Positions 50,005 to 60,814 of a stretch of 64,000 nucleotides of DNA are shown piece by piece (within the stretch, counting starts at the first letter, position 1; every line of letters begins with the position of its first letter). The notes beneath the pieces were generated by a model. It had not been told where the DNA came from. It did not search any database and saw only the letters and a list, made by a program, of their open reading frames with translations. The stretch is from Streptomyces sp. NBC_01237 (GTDB lineage Bacteria > Actinomycetota > Actinomycetes > Streptomycetales > Streptomycetaceae), in contig NZ_CP108508.1 in assembly GCF_035917275.1 (NCBI RefSeq), positions 1,612,001 to 1,676,000 on the forward strand, read 5' to 3'. A program made the position numbers and the translations under genes.

Positions 50005-50898
50005 TCACCTCTGCGCCGCCGCGTCCCGCCCGCGCACGCCGTTCCGCTTCTCCCCCGCACCGTCCGGCGCCGTGTCCATGCCGTCCGGCGCCACGTCAGA
50101 AACCTCCGGCGCCCCGCCGGTGGCCTCCGGCGCTACGCCGAGAGTGCCCGGCGTCGCTTCGTCGGCAACGCCTGCCCCGTCCGCGTCCTCCGCCGAAGCA
50201 TCAGCGCCCCCGCCCTCCGCCGGCCCCTCCGCCGCACCGTCAGCACCCGCTCCCGCCGCGCCCTCCGCCCCCGTCTCCTCGTAGAGGCGGGCGGACGCGT
50301 CGACATGGGCCAGCCGTCGCAGCGCCCCGAACATCGCCTCACCGAGCACGGTGCCCACGACCACGCTCTCCACCAGGTCCTCGCGCGCCACGCGCCGCGC
50401 CACATAGTCGAGGTCGGCGCGGGCGACCGGCTCGGCCGCGTCCGCGTACACGTCCAGCAGCTCGGTGAATCCGCCGTGCCCGGCCCGCCGCAGCGCGACC
50501 AGCACCCCGGCCAGCGACTCCCCGGCCGTGCTCTCCTCCTCCACGTGCCAGCCCCGCCGCTCCAGCAGTTCGGCGACCTCGTCGCGGGCGTCCTCCAGCT
50601 CGGGCCCCGCCTCCTCGCCGTCCGTCGGCGTGACGCCCTCCGCCGCCGCGCCCAGCACCTTGTGCACCGGCTGCTCGGGGTCGTCGACAGCCTCCAGCAC
50701 ATCACCGATGGCGGACAGCGAGAGTCCCCCGACATCCAGCAGCGCCCGGATCAGCCGCAGTCTGCGCTCGTGCCCGGCGTCGTAACTCGCCTGGTTCGGG
50801 CTGGTCAGCTGCCCGGCGGGCAGCAGCCCCTCGCGTACGTAGTACTTGATCGTCGGCACCGGGACCCCGGACCTGCGACTCAACTCACCGATGCGCAC
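50005..50898 (-). CDS. MerR-family regulator with long Ala/Glu/Gly-rich tail
   Basis: 297 aa from ATG 50898. Winged helix IGELSRRSGVPVPTIKYYVREGLLP (residues 3-27), then HERRLRLIRALLDVGGLSL. The middle part (about residues 80-205) has helices ending DLDYVARRVAREDLVESVV. Residues about 215-297 are low-complexity Ala/Asp/Gly/Glu, encoded by tandem-like GC-rich DNA. It is divergent from a membrane-protein pair, its probable target. Confidence 0.88.
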   Translation of the reverse strand: MRIGELSRRSGVPVPTIKYYVREGLLPAGQLTSPNQASYDAGHERRLRLIRALLDVGGLSLSAIGDVLEAVDDPEQPVHKVLGAAAEGVTPTDGEEAGPELEDARDEVAELLERRGWHVEEESTAGESLAGVLVALRRAGHGGFTELLDVYADAAEPVARADLDYVARRVAREDLVESVVVGTVLGEAMFGALRRLAHVDASARLYEETGAEGAAGAGADGAAEGPAEGGGADASAEDADGAGVADEATPGTLGVAPEATGGAPEVSDVAPDGMDTAPDGAGEKRNGVRGRDAAAQR

Positions 50899-52560: not shown

Positions 52561-52602
52561 CCCCGGGGAGATCCGGCGGCGTGGAAGGATCGCGCGAGCT
52601 GA

Positions 52603-52630
52603 CCAATCCGCGCCGCCATCGGCTCCGAAT
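52603..52630 (+). promoter_or_regulatory. SigK-type promoter of sigK-rskA
   Basis: CCAATCC (52603-52609), 15 bp, CCGAAT (52625-52630). It is the same spacing and hexamers as two promoters at 58379-58468, and close to the mycobacterial SigK pattern CCATCC...CCGAAT as I recall it. It predicts autoregulation. Confidence 0.82.
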
Positions 52631-52667
52631 GACTCCTGGAACCGATGAGCGTCCTGGGAGGACCCGC

Positions 52668-53252
52668 GTGAAGGAAGCCGTACAGATCAGCGGAGTGCCC
52701 GTGCCGGGCCCCGATCTCCAGGAGCTTCTGGTCCTGGTCGCCCGGGGTGACCAGGACGCCTTCGCCTCGGTGTACGACGCCGTGTGCGGGCCGGTGCTCG
52801 GGGTGGTGCGCAGCGTGCTCCGCGATCCCGCCCAGTCCGAGGAGGTCGCGCAGGAGGTATGGGTCGAGGTGTGGCGGACCGCGCCCCGCTTCCAGCCGTC
52901 CCGCGGATCGGCCGTGAACTGGGTGCTGACCCTCGCCCACCACCGCGCGGTCGACCGGGTCCGCTCGGCGGAGGCCTCGGCTGCGCGGGAGCACCGGGCC
53001 GCGCTGCTGGAGCGGACGCCCGCGTTCGACGAGGTCTCCGAACAGGTCGAGACCCGGCTGGAGAGGGAACAGGTACGGCGCTGTCTGCGCAACCTGTCCG
53101 AACTGCAGCGCCAGTCGGTGACCCTGGCGTATTACCGGGGCCTGACCTATCGCGAGGTCTCGGAGCTCCTCGCCGTACCCCTGGGCACCATCAAGACTCG
53201 ACTGCGTGACGGCCTGATCCGGCTGCGCGACTGCCTGGGGGTGAGCACATGA
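52668..53252 (+). CDS. sigK: ECF RNA polymerase sigma factor SigK
   Basis: 194 aa from GTG 52668, with GGGAGG 7 nt upstream. Region 2 spans about residues 25-95 (DAFASVYDAVCGPVLGVV, then EEVAQEVWVEVWRTAPRF). Region 4 (about 130-190) has LSELQRQSVTLAYYRGLTYREVSELL and PLGTIKTRLRDGLIRLR. Its neighbours, a RskA-like anti-sigma gene and a UfaA1/DUF1295 operon, mirror Rv0445c of M. tuberculosis. The anti-sigma start overlaps its stop. Confidence 0.9.
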   Translation: MKEAVQISGVPVPGPDLQELLVLVARGDQDAFASVYDAVCGPVLGVVRSVLRDPAQSEEVAQEVWVEVWRTAPRFQPSRGSAVNWVLTLAHHRAVDRVRSAEASAAREHRAALLERTPAFDEVSEQVETRLEREQVRRCLRNLSELQRQSVTLAYYRGLTYREVSELLAVPLGTIKTRLRDGLIRLRDCLGVST

Positions 53253-54004
53253 GCACGGCCGAACTGCACACGCTGACCGGGGCCTACGCCCTGCACGCGC
53301 TGCCCGATTCCGAGCGCCACGAGTTCGAACGCCATCTGGACGACTGCGAGGCCTGCGCCCAGGAGGTACGGGAGCTGTCGGCCACCGCCGCCCGGCTCGG
53401 TCTCGCGGTGTCGGTGCAGCCACCCCATGAGCTGCGCGCCCGTGTACTGCGGGAGATCACGGCCGTACGACAGGAGTCGCCCGCCCACGCCCGCGGCAGC
53501 TCCGCCCGCGACGAGCGATCCGGCCGCACCGGCCGCTGGTCGGCGTACGCGCTCGCCGCCTGTGTCGCGGCTGCCGCCGCGTTCGGCGGCATCGCGGTGT
53601 GGCAGAACCAGGTGGCGCAGGACGCCCGGCACGAGGCCGACCACGCCCAGCGGCAGAGCGAACAGCTGGCCCAGGTGCTCTCCGCGCCGGACGCGAGGAC
53701 CAGTTCGGGCGAGCTGGCCGGGGGCGCCCGGGGCACTGTCGTCGTCTCGCAGAGCCGGGACCGCGCGGTGTTCCTGGCCTCGGGCATGGCCCGGCCGCCG
53801 GGCGGCAAGGTGTACCAGCTCTGGTTCAACGACAGCGGAACGATGCGCTCCGCCGGCCTGATGAACCCGTCCGCGACCGATGGGGCGGTACTGCTCGACG
53901 GGCCGGTCGACGGGGCGTCCGGCATGGGCATCACCGTCGAACCGGCGGGCGGGTCCGAGCGGCCCACATCGGATCCGGTGGCCCTGATGGACTTCCCCGC
54001 CTGA
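53249..54004 (+). CDS. rskA: anti-sigma-K factor RskA
   Basis: 251 aa from ATG 53249, overlapping the sigK stop as ATGA. The cytosolic anti-sigma domain keeps the zinc motif H29-x3-C33-x2-C36 (ERHLDDCEAC), which as I recall is lost in M. tuberculosis RskA. One membrane helix (about residues 96-117) is followed by an outer domain GGKVYQLWFNDSGTMRSAG and ITVEPAGGSERPT, typical of RskA. Regulated proteolysis would release SigK. Confidence 0.92.
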   Translation: MSTAELHTLTGAYALHALPDSERHEFERHLDDCEACAQEVRELSATAARLGLAVSVQPPHELRARVLREITAVRQESPAHARGSSARDERSGRTGRWSAYALAACVAAAAAFGGIAVWQNQVAQDARHEADHAQRQSEQLAQVLSAPDARTSSGELAGGARGTVVVSQSRDRAVFLASGMARPPGGKVYQLWFNDSGTMRSAGLMNPSATDGAVLLDGPVDGASGMGITVEPAGGSERPTSDPVALMDFPA

Positions 54005-54009
54005 CCGGG

Positions 54010-54045
54010 ACCGGCGTCACCGCCCGACGGGGCGGCGACGCCGGT
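54010..54045. terminator. hairpin after rskA
   Basis: ACCGGCGTC (54010-54018) with GACGCCGGT (54037-54045), plus inner pairs CCGCCC/GGGCGG. A 15-bp duplicate GACGCCGGTACGCGT follows at 54037-54066. Confidence 0.75.
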
Positions 54046-54133
54046 ACGCGTGACGCCGGTACGCGTGCCCCCTCCGCACGCTCACGCGGACCACCGGGGC
54101 ACCGCCACCACCGCCTTCGCCGTCACGCCAGTT

Positions 54134-54937
54134 TCAGTTCCCGCGCGGTGGCCATGGGAAGAATCCGCTGGTCCGGGCCGTGTAGTCGGCGTAACCGGGC
54201 CGTTGTGCCATGTGCCGCTCCAGCAGCGCCTTCCCGCTTCCCTTGATCAACAGGAAGCTCATCACCACCGGCGCCACGAGCGTCGCCCCCGCCACCGCGG
54301 GCTGTTCGCACACCAGCAGGAACAGCCCCCACCAGACGCAGAAGTCACCGAAGTAGTTCGGGTGACGGGTCCACGACCAGAGCCCCCGGTCCATGATCCG
54401 GCCCCGGTTGGCGGGGTCGGAGGTGAAGCGGGCCAGTTGGCGGTCCCCGACGGCCTCGAAGACGAGACCCACCGCCCACAGCGCCGTCCCGGCCCAGGTC
54501 CACCAGGTCGGCGGCCCCGTCAGGTACTGCGCGGCCTGCACCGGCAGCGAGATCAGCCAGACCAGAGCGCCCTGGAGGAGGTAGACCTTCCGCAGGGCGT
54601 ACAGCTCCCGACGGCCGGGGGCCTTGGCCAGCATCGCCTCGTAGCGCGGGTCCTCGCCCCGGCCCCGGCCGCGCCGGCCGATGTGCGCGGCGAGCCGCAG
54701 GCCCCAGACAACGGTGAGCACCGTCACCAGCAGCCGCCGCCCGTCGTCGCCCTCGCCCGCCGACAGGACGTACGAGACGAGTGCCACCGCCGCGAAGGCG
54801 ATCCCCCACGCGACATCCACGACGCGGTGCACGCCCTTCCCGAGCGCGATCAGGAAGGTGACCAGCATGACGGCGAGGGCGGCGGCCGCCGAGGCCGCGA
54901 GGCCACCGGCGAACGCCGCCCAGGGGAACCCGCTCAC
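54134..54937 (-). CDS. DUF1295 membrane protein (steroid 5-alpha-reductase fold)
   Basis: 267 aa from ATG 54937. Several helices and the C-terminal NADPH-type motif DRGLWSWTRHPNYFGDFCVWWG (about residues 185-206), then PGYADYTARTSGFFPW. It is the last gene of the leftward unit and the homologue of Rv0446c. It may reduce or isomerise a double bond of modified fatty acyl chains. A 124-bp gap separates it from the synthase gene. Confidence 0.9.
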   Translation of the reverse strand: MSGFPWAAFAGGLAASAAAALAVMLVTFLIALGKGVHRVVDVAWGIAFAAVALVSYVLSAGEGDDGRRLLVTVLTVVWGLRLAAHIGRRGRGRGEDPRYEAMLAKAPGRRELYALRKVYLLQGALVWLISLPVQAAQYLTGPPTWWTWAGTALWAVGLVFEAVGDRQLARFTSDPANRGRIMDRGLWSWTRHPNYFGDFCVWWGLFLLVCEQPAVAGATLVAPVVMSFLLIKGSGKALLERHMAQRPGYADYTARTSGFFPWPPRGN

Positions 54938-55061
54938 CGCTCCGGCTCCGTCGTGCCCCGGGACATCCGCCGGACCGCGGCCCGGCGCCCAGGCGGCGGC
55001 CCGGAGTGCGGCCGGGCGGCGCCGCGCGGGGCGGTCCTGCCGGGAGTTTCGGTGGAGGTGG

Positions 55062-56327
55062 TCACACGGTCTCCTCGCGGGTCAGAAGCAGTTGCTGCAC
55101 ATTGAGATAGCCGGAGCGGAAGCCCGCCTCCGAATAGGCGAGGTAGAACGTCCACATCCGGCGGAAGGTCGCGTCGAAGCCGAGGGCGTCGATCTCGTCG
55201 GTCCGTTCGGTGAACCGTTCCCGCCACAGGCGCAGGGTCTCGGCGTAGTGCGTGCCGAAGGGGGTGCGCTGCCGTATCCGCAGGCAGGTGTGGTCGGCGG
55301 TGACCCGTTCCACGGCCTGGGTGGAGGGCAGCAGGCCGCCGGGGAAGATGTACTTCTGGATCCAGGTGTACGTGGTGCGGCTGGCGCGCATCCGGTCGTC
55401 CGGCATGGTGATGGCCTGGAGGGCGATACGCCCGCCAGGGGCCAGGAGCCGTTCCAGGGTGGTGAAGTAGACCGGCCAGTACTCCTCGCCGACCGCCTCG
55501 ATCATCTCGACGCTGACGATCGCGTCGTACTCCCCGGTGATCTCGCGGTAGTCGCACAGCCGGACCTCGACCAGGTCCTCGAACCCGGCCTCACGGATGC
55601 GGGCCTCGGCCAGTTCGCGCTGTTCGGCGGAGAGCGTGACGGTGACGACACGGGCGCCTCGGCCGGCGGCCCTGATGGCGAGTTCGCCCCAGCCGGTGCC
55701 GATCTCCAGCAGAACGCTGCCGGGGCCGGCACCGGCCAGGTCCAGCAGACGGTCGATCTTGCGGTGCTGGGCGGCGGGCAGCAGCGAACGCTCCGCGGGG
55801 AAGCCGCGGAAGTACGCGGCGGAGTACGTCAGGGTCTCGTCGAGGAAGAGGGAGAAGAGGTCGTTCGACAGGTCGTAGTGGTGGCTGATGTTGTCGCGGG
55901 CGTGCTCGGGCGTGTTGGTGTGTCCGGCGGGCCGGCGCGCCGCCCACAGTCCGCGCAGCCGTTGCAGGGGGCGGGGGACCAGTTCGGCCGCGTTTGCGGC
56001 GAGCACGGTCAGCACGCCGACCAGGTCGGGCGAGTCCCACTCGCCCGCCATGTAGGACTCGCCGAAGCCGATGAGGCCGTGCGCACCGATCCTGCGGAAG
56101 AACCGCTCCGGTTCACGGATGTCCATGAGCGGACCGCCCAGGCCCAGGCTCTCGCCGTCGGCGAGCCGGGCCCGCAGCGGCAGCCGGGCCAGCGCGCTCC
56201 GGACGATCCGTTCAGCGAGGGCGGTCCGTGCCCGGGAGGTCCGGGGCGGCGTGACGATGTCGGGCCAGCGCTCCGGGTCGGGAGCGGGGGTGCGGTGCGC
56301 GGACAGCGCGGGTGTGGGCGCGTTCAC
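55062..56327 (-). CDS. cyclopropane-fatty-acid-synthase-type methyltransferase (UfaA1-like)
   Basis: 421 aa from ATG 56327. SAM-dependent addition of a methylene or methyl to unsaturated phospholipid acyl chains. N-terminal lipid-binding part (residues 1-135), then the Rossmann fold: DNISHHYDLSNDLFSLFLDE (about 143-162), LLEIGTGWGELAIRAAG (about 203-219; the usual Cys is Thr here), VSVEMIEAVGEEYW and QAITMPDDR. The homologue Rv0447c (ufaA1) was linked to 10-methyl fatty acids. Its ATG overlaps the DUF1365 stop. Confidence 0.92.
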   Translation of the reverse strand: MNAPTPALSAHRTPAPDPERWPDIVTPPRTSRARTALAERIVRSALARLPLRARLADGESLGLGGPLMDIREPERFFRRIGAHGLIGFGESYMAGEWDSPDLVGVLTVLAANAAELVPRPLQRLRGLWAARRPAGHTNTPEHARDNISHHYDLSNDLFSLFLDETLTYSAAYFRGFPAERSLLPAAQHRKIDRLLDLAGAGPGSVLLEIGTGWGELAIRAAGRGARVVTVTLSAEQRELAEARIREAGFEDLVEVRLCDYREITGEYDAIVSVEMIEAVGEEYWPVYFTTLERLLAPGGRIALQAITMPDDRMRASRTTYTWIQKYIFPGGLLPSTQAVERVTADHTCLRIRQRTPFGTHYAETLRLWRERFTERTDEIDALGFDATFRRMWTFYLAYSEAGFRSGYLNVQQLLLTREETV

Positions 56328-57046
56328 TGCATGCCTTCCTGTGTGCGGTGGGAGGGGCGGGGCCGCACGGGCAGCCCCCGCAGATACAGCCGGATTCCGT
56401 GCAGCCGGATCGCGGCGGAGACGAGAACGGTGGACCAGGGGTGACGCAGGGACAGCCGGAGCAGCTCGGCGGGAGTGGCTTCGCGCCGGGTGCCGCGTAC
56501 GGTCGCGGTGAACGGGCTTGTTCCGTCCCGCTCCAGACGGATGGTCAGGCCAAGGGCGGGGCCGGGCTCCGGCAACCGCATCCGATAGCTGCCGTCGACG
56601 GGGAAGAACGGCGATACGTAGAACTCCTTGGGGGTCTCCGCCCGGTCAGCCGCGTCCGGGCGGAGCAGATACCCGTGCCGCTCGCCGTAGGTGTTGTGCA
56701 CTTCGGCGACGACGCAGAGCGGGGTCCCGTCCCGGCGCCGGCACCAGTAGACGGTCAGCGGGTTGAACACATGGCCAAGGACGCGGGCCTGGGTGAGCAT
56801 CGTGACGGTGCCGTCGGCCAGGTCCACGCCGTGGCCGCGCAGGAAGCGTTCGAGGCCGGCGCGGATGGTGGGCGCGGTGCCGCCGAAGTGGTCGCGGGCC
56901 TCGAAACGGGCCAGCGGGCGCAGGACGCGCGGCAGCCGGGGCGGCCGATCGGGGTCGATGAACCACAGATGGGTGCGGTGGCGGAACGCGTACCGGCCGG
57001 GGATGGTCCGCACATGCGTGATCGTGCACGGGTAGAGGGCGCTCAC
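56324..57046 (-). CDS. DUF1365 protein
   Basis: 240 aa from GTG 57046 (GTG 57049 is also possible), overlapping the stop of the FAD oxidoreductase as GTGA. Family marks: VSALYPCTITHVRTIPGRYAFRHR (residues 1-24, quoted as HVRTIPGRYAFRHR), LWFIDPDRPP, VFNPLTVYWC and EVHNTYGERHGYLL. DUF1365 genes nearly always accompany this oxidoreductase/synthase pair. The activity is not established. It is the homologue of Rv0448c. Confidence 0.92.
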   Translation of the reverse strand: MSALYPCTITHVRTIPGRYAFRHRTHLWFIDPDRPPRLPRVLRPLARFEARDHFGGTAPTIRAGLERFLRGHGVDLADGTVTMLTQARVLGHVFNPLTVYWCRRRDGTPLCVVAEVHNTYGERHGYLLRPDAADRAETPKEFYVSPFFPVDGSYRMRLPEPGPALGLTIRLERDGTSPFTATVRGTRREATPAELLRLSLRHPWSTVLVSAAIRLHGIRLYLRGLPVRPRPSHRTQEGMQ

Positions 57047-58317
57047 CACGCCACCCCCAGCGCCGCGGCCGCCGCGGCCCCCGAACGGCAGCCGTCCTCG
57101 TGGAACCCCCAGCCGTGGTACGCCCCGGCGTAGGCGGTGACGGGTCCGGACAGTGCGGGAAGCCGGGCCTGGGCGGCCACCGATTCCGGGGTGTAGACGG
57201 GATGTTCGTAGACCATGCGGGCCCGGACCCGGTCCGGATCGACGCGGTCGGCGCCGTTGAGTGTGACGACGAAGGTGTCGGGGGCGTCCAGCCGCTGGAG
57301 CCGGTTCATGTCGTAGCTGACGGTGACCCGGTCGCTGTCGGCGGTGCAGGAGGGCATCAGGTAGTTCCATGAGGCCCGCGCGCCGCGGTTGCGGGGCAGG
57401 AGCGTCGTGTCGGTGTGGAGCAGGGTGGGGTTGCGGGAGTAGCGGAACGCGCCGAGGGTGCGGCGCTCCTCCTCCGTCGGGTCGGCCAGCAGCCGCAGCG
57501 CCTGGTCCGGGTGGGTGGCGATGACGACGGCGGCGTACGTGTGGGTGGTGCCGTCCTCGGTGAGGAGTTCCACGCCGTCGGCGTGGCGGCGCAGGGACCG
57601 CACCGGTGTGGAGGTGTGCACGGCGTTGAGCTGCTTGGCGACGCGGTCGACGTAGGTGCGCGAGCCGCCGGTGACCGTGCGCCAGACCGGGGAGCCGCCG
57701 ACCGTGAGCATCCCGTGGTGGTCCAGGAACCTGAACAGGTAGCGGGCCGGGTAGCGCAGTGCGGTCGCCGGGTCGCAGGACCAGACGGCCGAGACCATCG
57801 GGGTCAGGAAGTGGGAGTGGAAGTACGGCGAGAAGCGGGCGCGTGCGGTGAATTCGCCCAGCGTCATCTCGGGGGCCGCGGTGTCCGGCCGCGCGAGGAG
57901 GGCGCGGGCGGCCCGGTGGAAGCGCGGCACCTCGGTGAGCATCCGCAGATAGCGGCCGCGCAGCGCGGCGCCCGGCTGGGCGAACAGCCCGGCGGGGCCG
58001 CGGGCGCCCGCGTAGGCGAGGCCGCACCCCTCGCACCGTACGGACATGCTCATCTCGGACTCCTGTGTGGGGACGCCGAGTTCGTCGAAGAGGCGCAGCA
58101 GGTGCGGGTAGGTGCGCCGGTTGTGGACGATGAAGCCCGAGTCGACGCGGTGCGTCCGTCCGTCCGACCCGGTCAGGTCGTGGGTGTGCGCGTGTCCGCC
58201 GACGCGTTCATCCGCCTCGTACAGCGTCACGTCGTGGGCCTTGTGGAGGATGTGCGCCGCGGTCAGTCCCGCCACTCCGGCGCCCACCACGGCCATCCGC
58301 CGCCGCTCCCGTGCCAT
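57043..58317 (-). CDS. FAD-dependent amine-oxidase-type oxidoreductase
   Basis: 424 aa from ATG 58317, with GAGGAG upstream. FAD Rossmann fold: MAVVGAGVAGLTAAHILHKA (residues 8-27), then EADERVGGHAHTHDL. Other marks are SGFIVHNRRTYPHLLRL, VIATHPDQALRLL and the C-terminal AYHGWGFHEDGCRSG. Relatives (Rv0449c, and UfaD of Rhodobacter as I recall it) desaturate methylated acyl chains. It is the first gene of the leftward unit, about 55 nt downstream of its SigK-type promoter. Confidence 0.92.
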   Translation of the reverse strand: MARERRRMAVVGAGVAGLTAAHILHKAHDVTLYEADERVGGHAHTHDLTGSDGRTHRVDSGFIVHNRRTYPHLLRLFDELGVPTQESEMSMSVRCEGCGLAYAGARGPAGLFAQPGAALRGRYLRMLTEVPRFHRAARALLARPDTAAPEMTLGEFTARARFSPYFHSHFLTPMVSAVWSCDPATALRYPARYLFRFLDHHGMLTVGGSPVWRTVTGGSRTYVDRVAKQLNAVHTSTPVRSLRRHADGVELLTEDGTTHTYAAVVIATHPDQALRLLADPTEEERRTLGAFRYSRNPTLLHTDTTLLPRNRGARASWNYLMPSCTADSDRVTVSYDMNRLQRLDAPDTFVVTLNGADRVDPDRVRARMVYEHPVYTPESVAAQARLPALSGPVTAYAGAYHGWGFHEDGCRSGAAAAAALGVAW

Positions 58318-58378
58318 TGCCTGCTCCTCGGGTCCTTCTTCGCCGACCGGGGCGCTGCTGCGAAGCCCCTTTCCGTTG

Positions 58379-58406
58379 ATTCGTCGCCGTGGACGGGGCG
58401 GATTGG
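58379..58406 (-). promoter_or_regulatory. SigK-type promoter of the FAD oxidoreductase unit
   Basis: Read leftwards: CCAATCC (58400-58406), 15 bp, ACGAAT (58379-58384). Same spacing as the sigK promoter, with one change in the -10. Confidence 0.8.
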
Positions 58407-58440
58407 TCGGTCTTCGACTCTGACCCGATCGGGTGAACAA

Positions 58441-58468
58441 CCAATCCACGGACCGTTCCGTGCCGAAT
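58441..58468 (+). promoter_or_regulatory. SigK-type promoter of the molybdopterin oxidoreductase gene
   Basis: CCAATCC (58441-58447), 15 bp, CCGAAT (58463-58468). Transcription would begin about 7 nt later, at or next to the GTG 58476, giving a leaderless mRNA. Confidence 0.82.
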
Positions 58469-58475
58469 ACATGGC

Positions 58476-60104
58476 GTGAGGAAAGTTCAGAACGATTCGC
58501 GGACGCACGGCACCTCCGGGTCCCGCAGGTCCCGCTGGGCGCGTGCAGTCTTCGCCGCGCTCGGCGGTCTGATCGCCGGGTTCTGCGCCCTGTGCGTGGC
58601 CGAGCTGGTCGCTGCCGCCGTACGTCCCGAGGCGGGGCCGGTCACAGCGGTGGGCGGGGCGGTCATCGACCGCACTCCCCCGGCGCTGAAGGACTTCGCC
58701 GTACGGAATTTCGGCACCAACGACAAGCTGGTGCTCCAGCTGGGAATCCTCGTGCTGCTGGCGGTCTTCGCCATGGCGGTGGGGGTGCTCGCGCTGCGGC
58801 ACCGGCTGCTCGGTTCGGCGGCCGTTCTGGTCTTCGGTGTGGTCGGGGCGGTGGCGGCGACCACCCGGCCGGAGGGCGGGCCCGGCGACGCGCTGCCTTC
58901 GGTGGTGGGAGCCGTGGTGGCCGCGGGAGTGCTGTATCTCCTGATCGGGCGGCTCATCCGGGTTCCCGGCCCGTCTCCCGCGGCTGGGGAGACGGGCCGG
59001 GGGACGCCGGGCTCCTTCGACCGCCGCGGTTTCGTGATCGCGGCGACCGCGGCCGCGGCGGCCTCGGCAGGTGCGGGCCTGGTGGGACGGAGACTCACCG
59101 CGTCCGTACAGGCCGGGGCCTCCGCCTCACGCGCGGAGATCGTCCTCCCGGTGCCGGATTCGGCGGCGCCCGCCGTCCCGCGCGGCGCCGATCTGGGCAT
59201 CCGGGGTGTGAGCTCGTTCATCACCTCGAACAAGAGCTTCTACCGGGTGGACACCGCTCTGGTGGTGCCCCAGGTCGATGCCGACCGGTGGCGGCTGCGC
59301 ATCCATGGCAAGGGCGTCGCCCGTCCCCTCACCGTCACCTTCCGCGACCTGCTGGCGCGGGAGATCATCGAGCGCGACATCACCCTGACCTGTGTGTCCA
59401 ACGAGGTCGGCGGGCCCTACGTCGGCAACGCCCGCTGGATCGGCGTGCGACTGGCCGACCTGCTGCGCGAGGCCGGAGTGAAGCCCCCGTCGCGGGGCGG
59501 ACCCGCCGACCAGATCGTGTCGCGCTCGGTGGACGGCATGACGATCGGCACACCGGTCGAGGACGTCATGGACGGGCGGGACGCGCTCCTCGCGCTCGGT
59601 ATGAACGGCGAGCCGCTGCCCTTCGCGCACGGTTTCCCGGTCCGGATGCTCGTGCCGGGGCTGTACGGCTATGTGTCGGCCTGCAAATGGATCCAGGACA
59701 TCGAGCTGACGACGTTCGACGACTACGACGCCTACTGGGTCAAGCGCAGTTGGTCGCGCCGGGGTCCTATCAAGACCGAGTCGCGCATCGACACCCCGCG
59801 CCCCTTCGCGTCCCCCAAGGCGGGCACGGTGCCCGTCGCCGGTGTCGCCTGGGCCCAGCACCGGGGCATCGACCGGGTGGAGGTCCGGGTGGACGGCGGC
59901 GAGTGGCACCGTGCCCGCCTCGGCACGGAGGACAGCCGGGACACCTGGCGTCAGTGGGTGTGGGAATGGCCGGCCACGTCCGGCAACCACACCCTTGAGG
60001 TCCGTGCGACGGACCGCACCGGCGCCACCCAGACCGGCAAACGGGTCGGCACCGTCCCCAACGGCGCGACCGGCTGGCATTCGGTGGTGGTCAAGGTGCC
60101 CTGA
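58476..60104 (+). CDS. membrane molybdopterin-dependent oxidoreductase (sulfite-oxidase/YedY type)
   Basis: 542 aa from GTG 58476, no Shine-Dalgarno, consistent with a leaderless mRNA. Four to five N-terminal helices (residues about 20-165) precede an internal twin-arginine-like segment, FDRRGFVIAATAAAAASAG (about 185-203). The Moco domain has the ligand cysteine in ITLTCVSNEVGGPYVGNARW, and VRMLVPGLYGYVSACKWI. The C-terminal dimerisation domain (about residues 440-540) has VEVRVDGGEWHRARLG. Possible role: reduction of oxidised residues or lipids outside the membrane. Confidence 0.9.
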   Translation: MRKVQNDSRTHGTSGSRRSRWARAVFAALGGLIAGFCALCVAELVAAAVRPEAGPVTAVGGAVIDRTPPALKDFAVRNFGTNDKLVLQLGILVLLAVFAMAVGVLALRHRLLGSAAVLVFGVVGAVAATTRPEGGPGDALPSVVGAVVAAGVLYLLIGRLIRVPGPSPAAGETGRGTPGSFDRRGFVIAATAAAAASAGAGLVGRRLTASVQAGASASRAEIVLPVPDSAAPAVPRGADLGIRGVSSFITSNKSFYRVDTALVVPQVDADRWRLRIHGKGVARPLTVTFRDLLAREIIERDITLTCVSNEVGGPYVGNARWIGVRLADLLREAGVKPPSRGGPADQIVSRSVDGMTIGTPVEDVMDGRDALLALGMNGEPLPFAHGFPVRMLVPGLYGYVSACKWIQDIELTTFDDYDAYWVKRSWSRRGPIKTESRIDTPRPFASPKAGTVPVAGVAWAQHRGIDRVEVRVDGGEWHRARLGTEDSRDTWRQWVWEWPATSGNHTLEVRATDRTGATQTGKRVGTVPNGATGWHSVVVKVP

Positions 60105-60172: not shown

Positions 60173-60814
60173 ATGAACACCCTGCACTTCCGTCGCATCG
60201 CCGTCGCCGTGTCCGCCGCAGCCGTTCTGCCGCTGGCCCTGACGGCCTGTTCCTCCGACGACTCCAAGGACGCCGCAGCCGGTTCCACACCGAGCGCGGC
60301 GTCGTCGGCCGCCTCGGACGGCGACTCGATGAACATGGACGAGCCGTTCGGCCCGGCGTGCGCATCGGTGCCGAAGGACGGCGCGGGCTCGTTCTCCGGC
60401 ATGGCGAAGGACCCGGTCGCCACGGCCGCGTCGAACAACCCGGACCTCTCCACCCTGGTCACCGCCGTCAAGCAGGCGGGTCTGGTCGACACCCTGAACA
60501 ACGCGCAGAACATCACGGTGTTCGCGCCGACCAACGAGGCCTTCGCCAAGATCCCGAAGGCCGACCTGGACAAGCTGCTGGCGAACAAGGCCGAGCTGAC
60601 CAAGGTGCTCACGTATCACGTGGTGGGCGAGAAGCTGACGCCGAAGCAGCTGGAGAACGGGTCCTTCGACACCTTGGAGAAGAGCAAGCTGACGACGTCC
60701 GGTTCGGGGATGGTCTACACGGTGAACGACTCCTCGAAGGTCGTCTGCGGCAATGTGCCGACCGCCAATGCCACGGTCTACATCATCGACACGGTCCTGA
60801 TGCCGCCGAAGTAG
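60173..60814 (+). CDS. fasciclin-domain lipoprotein (MPT70/MPT83-like)
   Basis: 213 aa from ATG 60173, with CCAGGAG upstream. Lipobox LALTACSSD (Cys at residue 26). After a Ser/Ala linker comes a FAS1 domain: DPVATAASNNPDLSTLVTAV, ITVFAPTNEAFAKIP, LTYHVVGEKLTP and the C-terminal VYIIDTVLMPP. The pair of cysteines CASVP and KVVCGNVP resembles MPT70. It is 68 bp downstream of the Moco gene and most likely in the same SigK transcript. An adhesion or surface role is likely. Confidence 0.92.
   Translation: MNTLHFRRIAVAVSAAAVLPLALTACSSDDSKDAAAGSTPSAASSAASDGDSMNMDEPFGPACASVPKDGAGSFSGMAKDPVATAASNNPDLSTLVTAVKQAGLVDTLNNAQNITVFAPTNEAFAKIPKADLDKLLANKAELTKVLTYHVVGEKLTPKQLENGSFDTLEKSKLTTSGSGMVYTVNDSSKVVCGNVPTANATVYIIDTVLMPPK

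Follow-up and report, generated by a model that had tools for sequence, protein, structure and literature searches.

A 64,000-nucleotide stretch of Streptomyces sp. NBC_01237 (contig NZ_CP108508.1, positions 1,612,001 to 1,676,000; hereafter 'the window', numbered from its first letter) carries three exact copies of the sequence CCAATCC-N16-CGAAT, one before the gene for the extracytoplasmic function (ECF) sigma factor SigK and the other two back to back between a lipid-modification operon and a molybdopterin oxidoreductase gene, with a 16-bp dyad in the spacer that separates this divergent pair. From the comparisons reported here we consider it likely that the three copies are SigK promoters of a single autoregulated envelope-stress regulon, and that its two outputs are co-controlled at the dyad by a regulator of the MarR family.

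Results

Three exact copies of one promoter motif

The original prediction had placed copies of a single motif before sigK and before each of the two divergent units, with equal spacing between the two elements. Each copy was found on the strand and at the coordinates predicted (Table 1) with 0 mismatches, and the spacing holds as well, the N16 that we count between CCAATCC and CGAAT being the N15 of that prediction plus the undefined base (n) that it had attached to the second element. CCAATCC occurs three times on the two strands of the window, each time within one of these sites, and a scan for CCAATCC/CGAAT pairs at spacings of 10-25 returned only the three, all at 16. From base composition the exact motif is expected 0.002 times in 64 kb and 0.33 times in the whole genome; at N16 the genome of 10.19 Mb holds three copies, all of them in this locus. 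In pattern searches of the genome, with the reversed pattern as control, allowing one mismatch gave 10 sites (the three exact ones included) against one for the reversed pattern, and widening the spacing to 13-19 added two exact pairs elsewhere, at N15 and N17.

The gene behind the first copy, whose start was taken as the GTG at 52668 and not as the start of the longer open reading frame at 52581, encodes a protein that scores 293.1 bits against the NCBI SigK model NF007228 (cut-off 226), and the overlapping gene that follows encodes both domains of the anti-sigma factor RskA. The best solved relative of the sigma factor is M. tuberculosis SigK (4nqw, E 7e-47), with which both late redox cysteines align as C; these correspond to the two conserved cysteines C133 and C183 in the numbering given in PMC7509140. 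The 'SigK' of S. coelicolor, SCO6520, shares the name only: it is a SigB homologue, not this ECF factor (PMC9205884).

The motif accompanies sigK and its neighbours through the genus

A SigK-like match at E 1e-40 or better is present in 124 of 150 genomes of the genus. In 30 fetched loci with the best matches, one of them the window's, the motif stands before sigK in 29 (19 exact, 10 with one mismatch), and all 29 of these sites have a spacing of 16, although 15-18 were allowed. Forty relatives, picked for the highest SigK similarity, hold 94 exact sites against one for the reversed control, and 37 of them have at least one. In 20 fetched sigK regions, with at most one mismatch, the motif precedes the flavin adenine dinucleotide (FAD) protein gene in all 15 regions that have that gene and the molybdopterin gene in 10 of 11, and wherever a fetched region had the fasciclin gene without the molybdopterin gene (seven regions), a SigK site faced the fasciclin gene. 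Counts across relatives share ancestry and are not independent events. The same promoter element thus stands before sigK and before the presumed target genes, which, together with the identity of SigK and RskA, supports the autoregulated SigK circuit of the original prediction.

In four genomes (G112, G054, G064 and G097) the molybdopterin gene is missing from the fetched sigK region and lies elsewhere, with an exact site 7 nt upstream; two more (G123 and G111), for which the sigK region was truncated or not retrieved, also carry a distal exact site before it. Because the link between motif and gene persists after the gene has moved, we regard this as strong evidence that the site is functional.

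SigK sites have been described as highly conserved in Actinobacteria (PMC7509140). The SigK family was found in 71 of 118 genomes of the class; about half of 30 fetched class loci had a site with at most one mismatch, which could lie anywhere in the locus and did not always precede sigK, and in several of the 30 no site was found. Given this patchiness the motif is best established in the window's genus. In two class members the variant CCCATCC-N16-CGAAT lies upstream of a DUF1365-sigK-rskA run.

These data bear on two other explanations of the three copies. Chance resemblance could point to the count with up to two mismatches, for which 2.38 sites are expected in the window and three are found, 38 of 100 shuffles yielding as many; this figure pools mismatched sites and would not on its own support the motif, the support coming from exact matching, with three sites against the 0.002 expected, and from conservation in relatives, so that we consider chance extremely improbable. 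The motif might also be read by a different ECF sigma factor. Streptomycetes have many, and diverged SigK-like loci in other genomes of the genus carry the same motif, which makes cross-recognition possible; we nevertheless hold this to be very unlikely, as the window genome has a single SigK match at E 1e-40 or better and as, across the genus, the motif is found together with sigK and stands before that gene too.

The divergent outputs

On the rightward side, the GTG at 58476 opens an open reading frame of 542 codons 7 nt after the -10 element. The distance from CGAAY to the first start codon in frame, taken over 36 distinct molybdopterin promoters, is 7 nt in 34, 8 in one and 1 in one; because 34 of them keep the 7-nt offset, the suggestion that this GTG begins a leaderless mRNA is strengthened, as a prediction. 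The fasciclin gene downstream is probably co-transcribed with the molybdopterin gene. At the FAD promoters the start offset is 58-62 nt in 30 of 55 distinct promoters and scattered in the remainder.

The leftward operon encodes a FAD desaturase-like protein, a DUF1365 protein and a CMAS-type methylase together, and by domain types it resembles the furan-fatty-acid genes ufaD-ufaO-ufaM, whose UfaM family we take to be CMAS-type; the product chemistry is a predicted one. The same three types of protein occur in the RpoE-ChrR regulon of Rhodobacter sphaeroides, with which the window was compared by domain description and whose sigma and anti-sigma factors are of a different family from SigK and RskA. 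Furan fatty acids are the product of UfaM, UfaD and UfaO in Rhodobacter; of these proteins UfaO has a DUF1365 domain and UfaD is FAD/phytoene-desaturase-like, and loss of the anti-sigma factor ChrR raises the furan fatty acid product (PMC7380195). A photo-oxidative or lipid-peroxidation role for the window genes is suggested by analogy only. In five relatives about 1.3 kb of extra DNA lies between the CMAS and DUF1295 genes, room for one gene that is absent from the window.

A phased dyad between the two divergent promoters

The earlier picture of the divergent pair stands as far as its SigK sites are concerned and was incomplete in that it made no mention of a conserved dyad between the two -35 elements. 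In the window this dyad, TGACCCGATCGGGTGA, lies 14 bp from the -35 element of the FAD promoter and 4 bp from that of the molybdopterin promoter. Among 295 genus genomes scanned, 30 had the divergent arrangement, and a scan with one genome per species gave 116 stretches, many by chance. A two-sided filter that required both -35 and both -10 elements at N16 retained 57 distinct pairs out of 130 distinct one-sided spacers, for which only one -10 was required and which include many from unrelated bacteria and by chance. With the dyad search confined to the spacer, overlap with a -35 element being outside the search, 47 of the 57 pairs scored at least 11 of 16, compared with 1.4% of shuffled spacers. 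One of these, from Actinomyces bovis (gaps 20 and 8), scored 11; no match to a FAD, molybdopterin or fasciclin gene lay near it, and it was treated as a false dyad. The 46 pairs left all belong to the window's genus, and where records with this promoter arrangement bear a name, it is Streptomyces. The ten pairs that scored below 11 all come from outside Streptomyces (Nocardioides, Amycolatopsis, Catenulispora, Knoellia, Leifsonia, Actinophytocola and Streptosporangiaceae), which suggests that the dyad was added to a SigK circuit already in existence.

The distances from dyad to -35 element fall into few classes. The 92 gaps of the 46 genus pairs are of 4 (34 gaps), 13 (12), 14 (44), 15 (1) and 16 bp (1), and gaps of 5-12 are absent among them. 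Oriented with the FAD side first (DUF1295 replaced FAD in one pair, L096, and a single recognised neighbour sufficed elsewhere), the combinations are (13,4) in 12 pairs, (14,4) in 15, (14,14) in 13 and (4,4) in three, with one pair each for (14,15), (16,14) and (4,14). On each side the dyad has thus moved by about one turn of the helix, and the two distances occur in all four combinations. Fourteen further spacers score at least 11 and fail the two-sided filter: 11 from streptomycetes with gaps of 4, 14 or 15, two from Actinophytocola (L157 with 13 and 17, L189 with 6 and 13) and one from Planctomycetaceae with gaps of 0 and 15. The sigK promoters are without the dyad, the 21 examined scoring at most 10 of 16 within 70 bp upstream. 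The 14-bp gap on the FAD side (58407-58420 in the window) often reads like TCGATSATCGR in relatives and is degenerate in the window; it forms a putative second element.

A similar dyad precedes a MarR gene

Searched in a strict form (TCAYYCGWWCGRRTGA), the dyad turned up at 29 sites, spread over 12 genomes, and the reversed pattern at none; in 9 of the 12 a strict dyad lies 64-65 bp before the same MarR gene. An orthologue of this gene was present in all 61 genomes examined, and all 51 loci fetched have a dyad of at least 12 of 16 upstream of it, a score that 2.2% of shuffles reach, the core being altered in part of them, for example to TCACTCATATGAGTGA. The encoded protein is a MarR regulator by PF01047. 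Its best solved relative is the Rv0880-type 4yif (E 2.2e-23), but with 118 bits against a cut-off of 220 it fails the Rv0880 family model NF052438, so that Rv0880-type regulators are its nearest solved relatives and not a family to which it belongs. It may be the same gene as SCO4122, presumably an S. coelicolor MarR gene that stands beside a transporter.

The window holds a single site within one mismatch of TNACYCGATCGRGTNA, between the divergent promoters, and none at merR. The dyad probably belongs to a regulator separate from SigK, and the simplest reading of its distribution is that one MarR protein reads its own promoter, a CAP gene and the SigK output pair, the binding itself being predicted. 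Two other streptomycete regulators were rejected as readers of the dyad: the operator of BldD has a core of 1 bp compared with 4 here, and that of the MarR protein SCO3205, given as TTnAAnnnTCAA, is different (PMC3737563). In the open PMC literature, searched without a dyad-sequence query and with subscription papers outside the scope, we found no description of the dyad or of MarR control of SigK targets.

Elsewhere, the dyad lies upstream of an apparent secreted CAP-domain gene with an HxlR-like gene nearby (L086 and L245-L249), where the CAP domain was confirmed by Pfam for L248 only and the other CAP and HxlR calls were made by eye. Strict dyads were also seen, again by eye, near a DXP synthase-like gene (L237, in G055) and near a chaplin-like gene (L250, in G018); the dyad sequence of the latter recurs in the window genome at G000:C1:7226642.

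Extent of the regulon and neighbouring genes

That the regulon is local, as originally claimed, is true of the three exact sites and has to be qualified for a variant site before a distant alpha/beta hydrolase gene, which is a possible fourth target (Table 1). Among the seven one-mismatch sites elsewhere in the genome, four (L004 and L006-L008) had no convincing target or lay inside an open reading frame, and the hydrolase site was retained since related genomes carry it. Ten hydrolase loci, found by N-terminus in 41 genomes, have a one-mismatch site in the window genome and G018, an exact site in G004 (the sequence of this exact site occurs in G054 too), two mismatches in G028, and none within two mismatches in the other six.

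Upstream of sigK, the segment 51015-52456 encodes a 319-residue protein without a Pfam or NCBIfam match and an ABA DEFICIENT 4-like protein (PF14108), both of which neighbour sigK in many of the relatives fetched, though not in every one. In other streptomycetes (L066-L070 and L078-L080) the motif stands upstream of a gene of RskA type or next to diverged genes of SigK type, where, as judged by eye, it precedes a DUF4331-like gene; cross-talk with SigK is possible there.

Table 1. Features of the sigK locus and related sites; positions are those of the window unless a genome coordinate is given.
Feature	Position	Strand	Remarks
MerR regulator	50008-50898		upstream of sigK
Putative SigK promoter 1, CCAATCC-N16-CGAAT	52603..52630	+	exact; before sigK; leadered
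sigK, ECF sigma factor SigK	52668..53252	+	NF007228 above cut-off; 4nqw alignment
rskA, anti-sigma factor, overlapping the end of sigK	53249..54004	+	PF22618 (RskA_N) and PF10099 (RskA_C), both above gathering
DUF1295 protein, last leftward gene	54134..54937	-	PF06966
CMAS-family fatty acyl methyltransferase (UfaM-like)	55062..56327	-	PF02353
DUF1365 protein (UfaO-like)	56324..57049	-	PF07103
FAD amine-oxidase/desaturase-like protein (UfaD-like), first leftward gene	57043..58317	-	PF01593
Putative SigK promoter 2	58379..58406	-	exact; leftward, leader of ~60 nt to the FAD gene
16-bp dyad	58421..58436	.	between the two -35 elements; proposed MarR operator
Putative SigK promoter 3	58441..58468	+	exact; rightward
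Molybdopterin oxidoreductase, hydrophobic N-terminal part	58476..60104	+	PF00174; GTG start, predicted leaderless
Fasciclin-domain, lipoprotein-like protein (MPT70/MPT83-type domain)	60173..60814	+	PF02469
Possible fourth SigK target site, CCCATCC-N16-CGAAT	G000:C1:4326928-4326955 (L005, L332)		before alpha/beta hydrolase gene

Discussion

In the circuit that we propose, RskA would hold SigK inactive until a signal frees it, and RNA polymerase carrying the freed SigK would then transcribe sigK-rskA itself, the leftward lipid-modification operon FAD-DUF1365-CMAS-DUF1295 and, as a leaderless rightward mRNA, the genes for the molybdopterin oxidoreductase and the fasciclin protein. The dyad, which stands at the two divergent output promoters and not at the sigK promoter, would be the operator of an Rv0880-like MarR protein encoded elsewhere, so that promoters 2 and 3 would need SigK plus a MarR signal and the sigK loop would read SigK alone.

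Several observations weigh against this proposal. One of the 30 fetched sigK loci (L037) is without a site within two mismatches. The 46 dyad pairs share ancestry and are not 46 independent trials, and the gap combination (4,14) comes from one sequence, L194. Two Actinophytocola spacers have a dyad-like match that is off the gap rule, with gaps of (13,17) and (6,13), and within the streptomycetes the dyad is absent from six one-sided pairs (L110, L201, L203, L213, L219 and L232), whose spacer is T-rich and 29-30 long; among further one-sided pairs of the genus, two are without it (L124 and L141) and three score 10 (L089, L134 and L222). Of the six relocated molybdopterin promoters, two (L062 and L064) have a dyad that scores 13 of 16 and three (L061, L063 and L065) one of only 8-9, and in L076 none can be recognised. 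As for the MarR gene, the 51 loci are partly the best-scoring orthologues, the cores differ (often GATC or GAAC in the SigK pairs, often GTTC before MarR), and inspection by eye revealed no clear covariation of the two cores between genomes.

Who reads the dyad, and to what effect, can be weighed from the same data. An operator of another regulator that also controls the MarR gene, either the HxlR-like protein encoded near the CAP gene or the MerR protein of the window, would accord with the dyads upstream of CAP-domain genes in several genomes and with the closeness of the MerR gene to sigK; the fixed distance of the strict dyad from the MarR start and its presence in every fetched MarR locus speak against it, as does its place in the window, between the divergent promoters and not at merR, and we consider such a regulator unlikely. 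If the reader is the MarR protein, its mode of action is a finer matter. Taking transcription starts ~7 nt after the -10 element, the centre of the window dyad lies near -47 of the molybdopterin promoter and near -57 of the FAD promoter, and we favour co-activation over repression, with about even confidence, because a protein in contact with the polymerase would be expected to keep a fixed phase, which simple blocking does not require. A plain repressor that blocks both divergent SigK promoters until its ligand arrives, the 10-bp steps being tolerated insertions and not a mark of polymerase contact, falls somewhat short of an even chance: most characterised MarR proteins repress (PMC3737563), and a dimer bound just upstream of the -35 elements could hinder entry, yet blocking requires no helical phase, and intermediate gaps are missing from the genus pairs.

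Co-activation can be drawn further, tentatively and as a possibility that we do not rate as probable, into a phase-locked two-input switch. A MarR-type activator, placed near -47 or near -57, would have to join the SigK polymerase at each output; RskA would pass on a membrane signal and MarR a small-molecule one, and the two would combine to bring about an envelope defence by furan fatty acids, the molybdopterin enzyme and the fasciclin protein; and evolution would have moved the operator by roughly a whole helical turn on either side.

Akin to the mycobacterial SigK-RskA regulon, the window has a sigma/anti-sigma pair with both redox cysteines, predicted autoregulation, a fasciclin-domain target gene under a SigK site and the lipid set FAD-DUF1365-CMAS-DUF1295, which we take to be the equivalent of Rv0446c-Rv0449c. 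It differs in that sigK has a SigK site of its own and the lipid operon is one half of a divergent pair, to which the window adds the molybdopterin oxidoreductase on its predicted leaderless mRNA and the phased dyad. The mycobacterial factor controls eleven genes, mpt70/mpt83 included, with autoregulation through the promoter of Rv0449c (PMC7509140). In Mycobacterium kansasii the SigK-type fasciclin genes mpk83/mpk70 are reported to be light-induced (PMC9861118), a response that may depend on SigK and that would fit a photo-oxidative role.

What is new here beyond the original prediction is the phased dyad and the MarR candidate. The activating signal of SigK-RskA is described as an open question (PMC7509140), and in mycobacteria major antigens belong to the SigK regulon. 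A harmless Streptomyces that shares the core circuit, with few and compactly placed targets and a second input predicted at the DNA, may offer a tractable model for the signal, the product and the logic of the system. The usual reading of ECF sigma promoters is that they answer to the sigma factor alone, a picture that a conserved, phase-locked co-regulator site at an ECF output would change, if it proves true. The link between SigK and furan-fatty-acid genes, finally, would give a concrete chemical hypothesis for operons of the Rv0446c-Rv0449c type.

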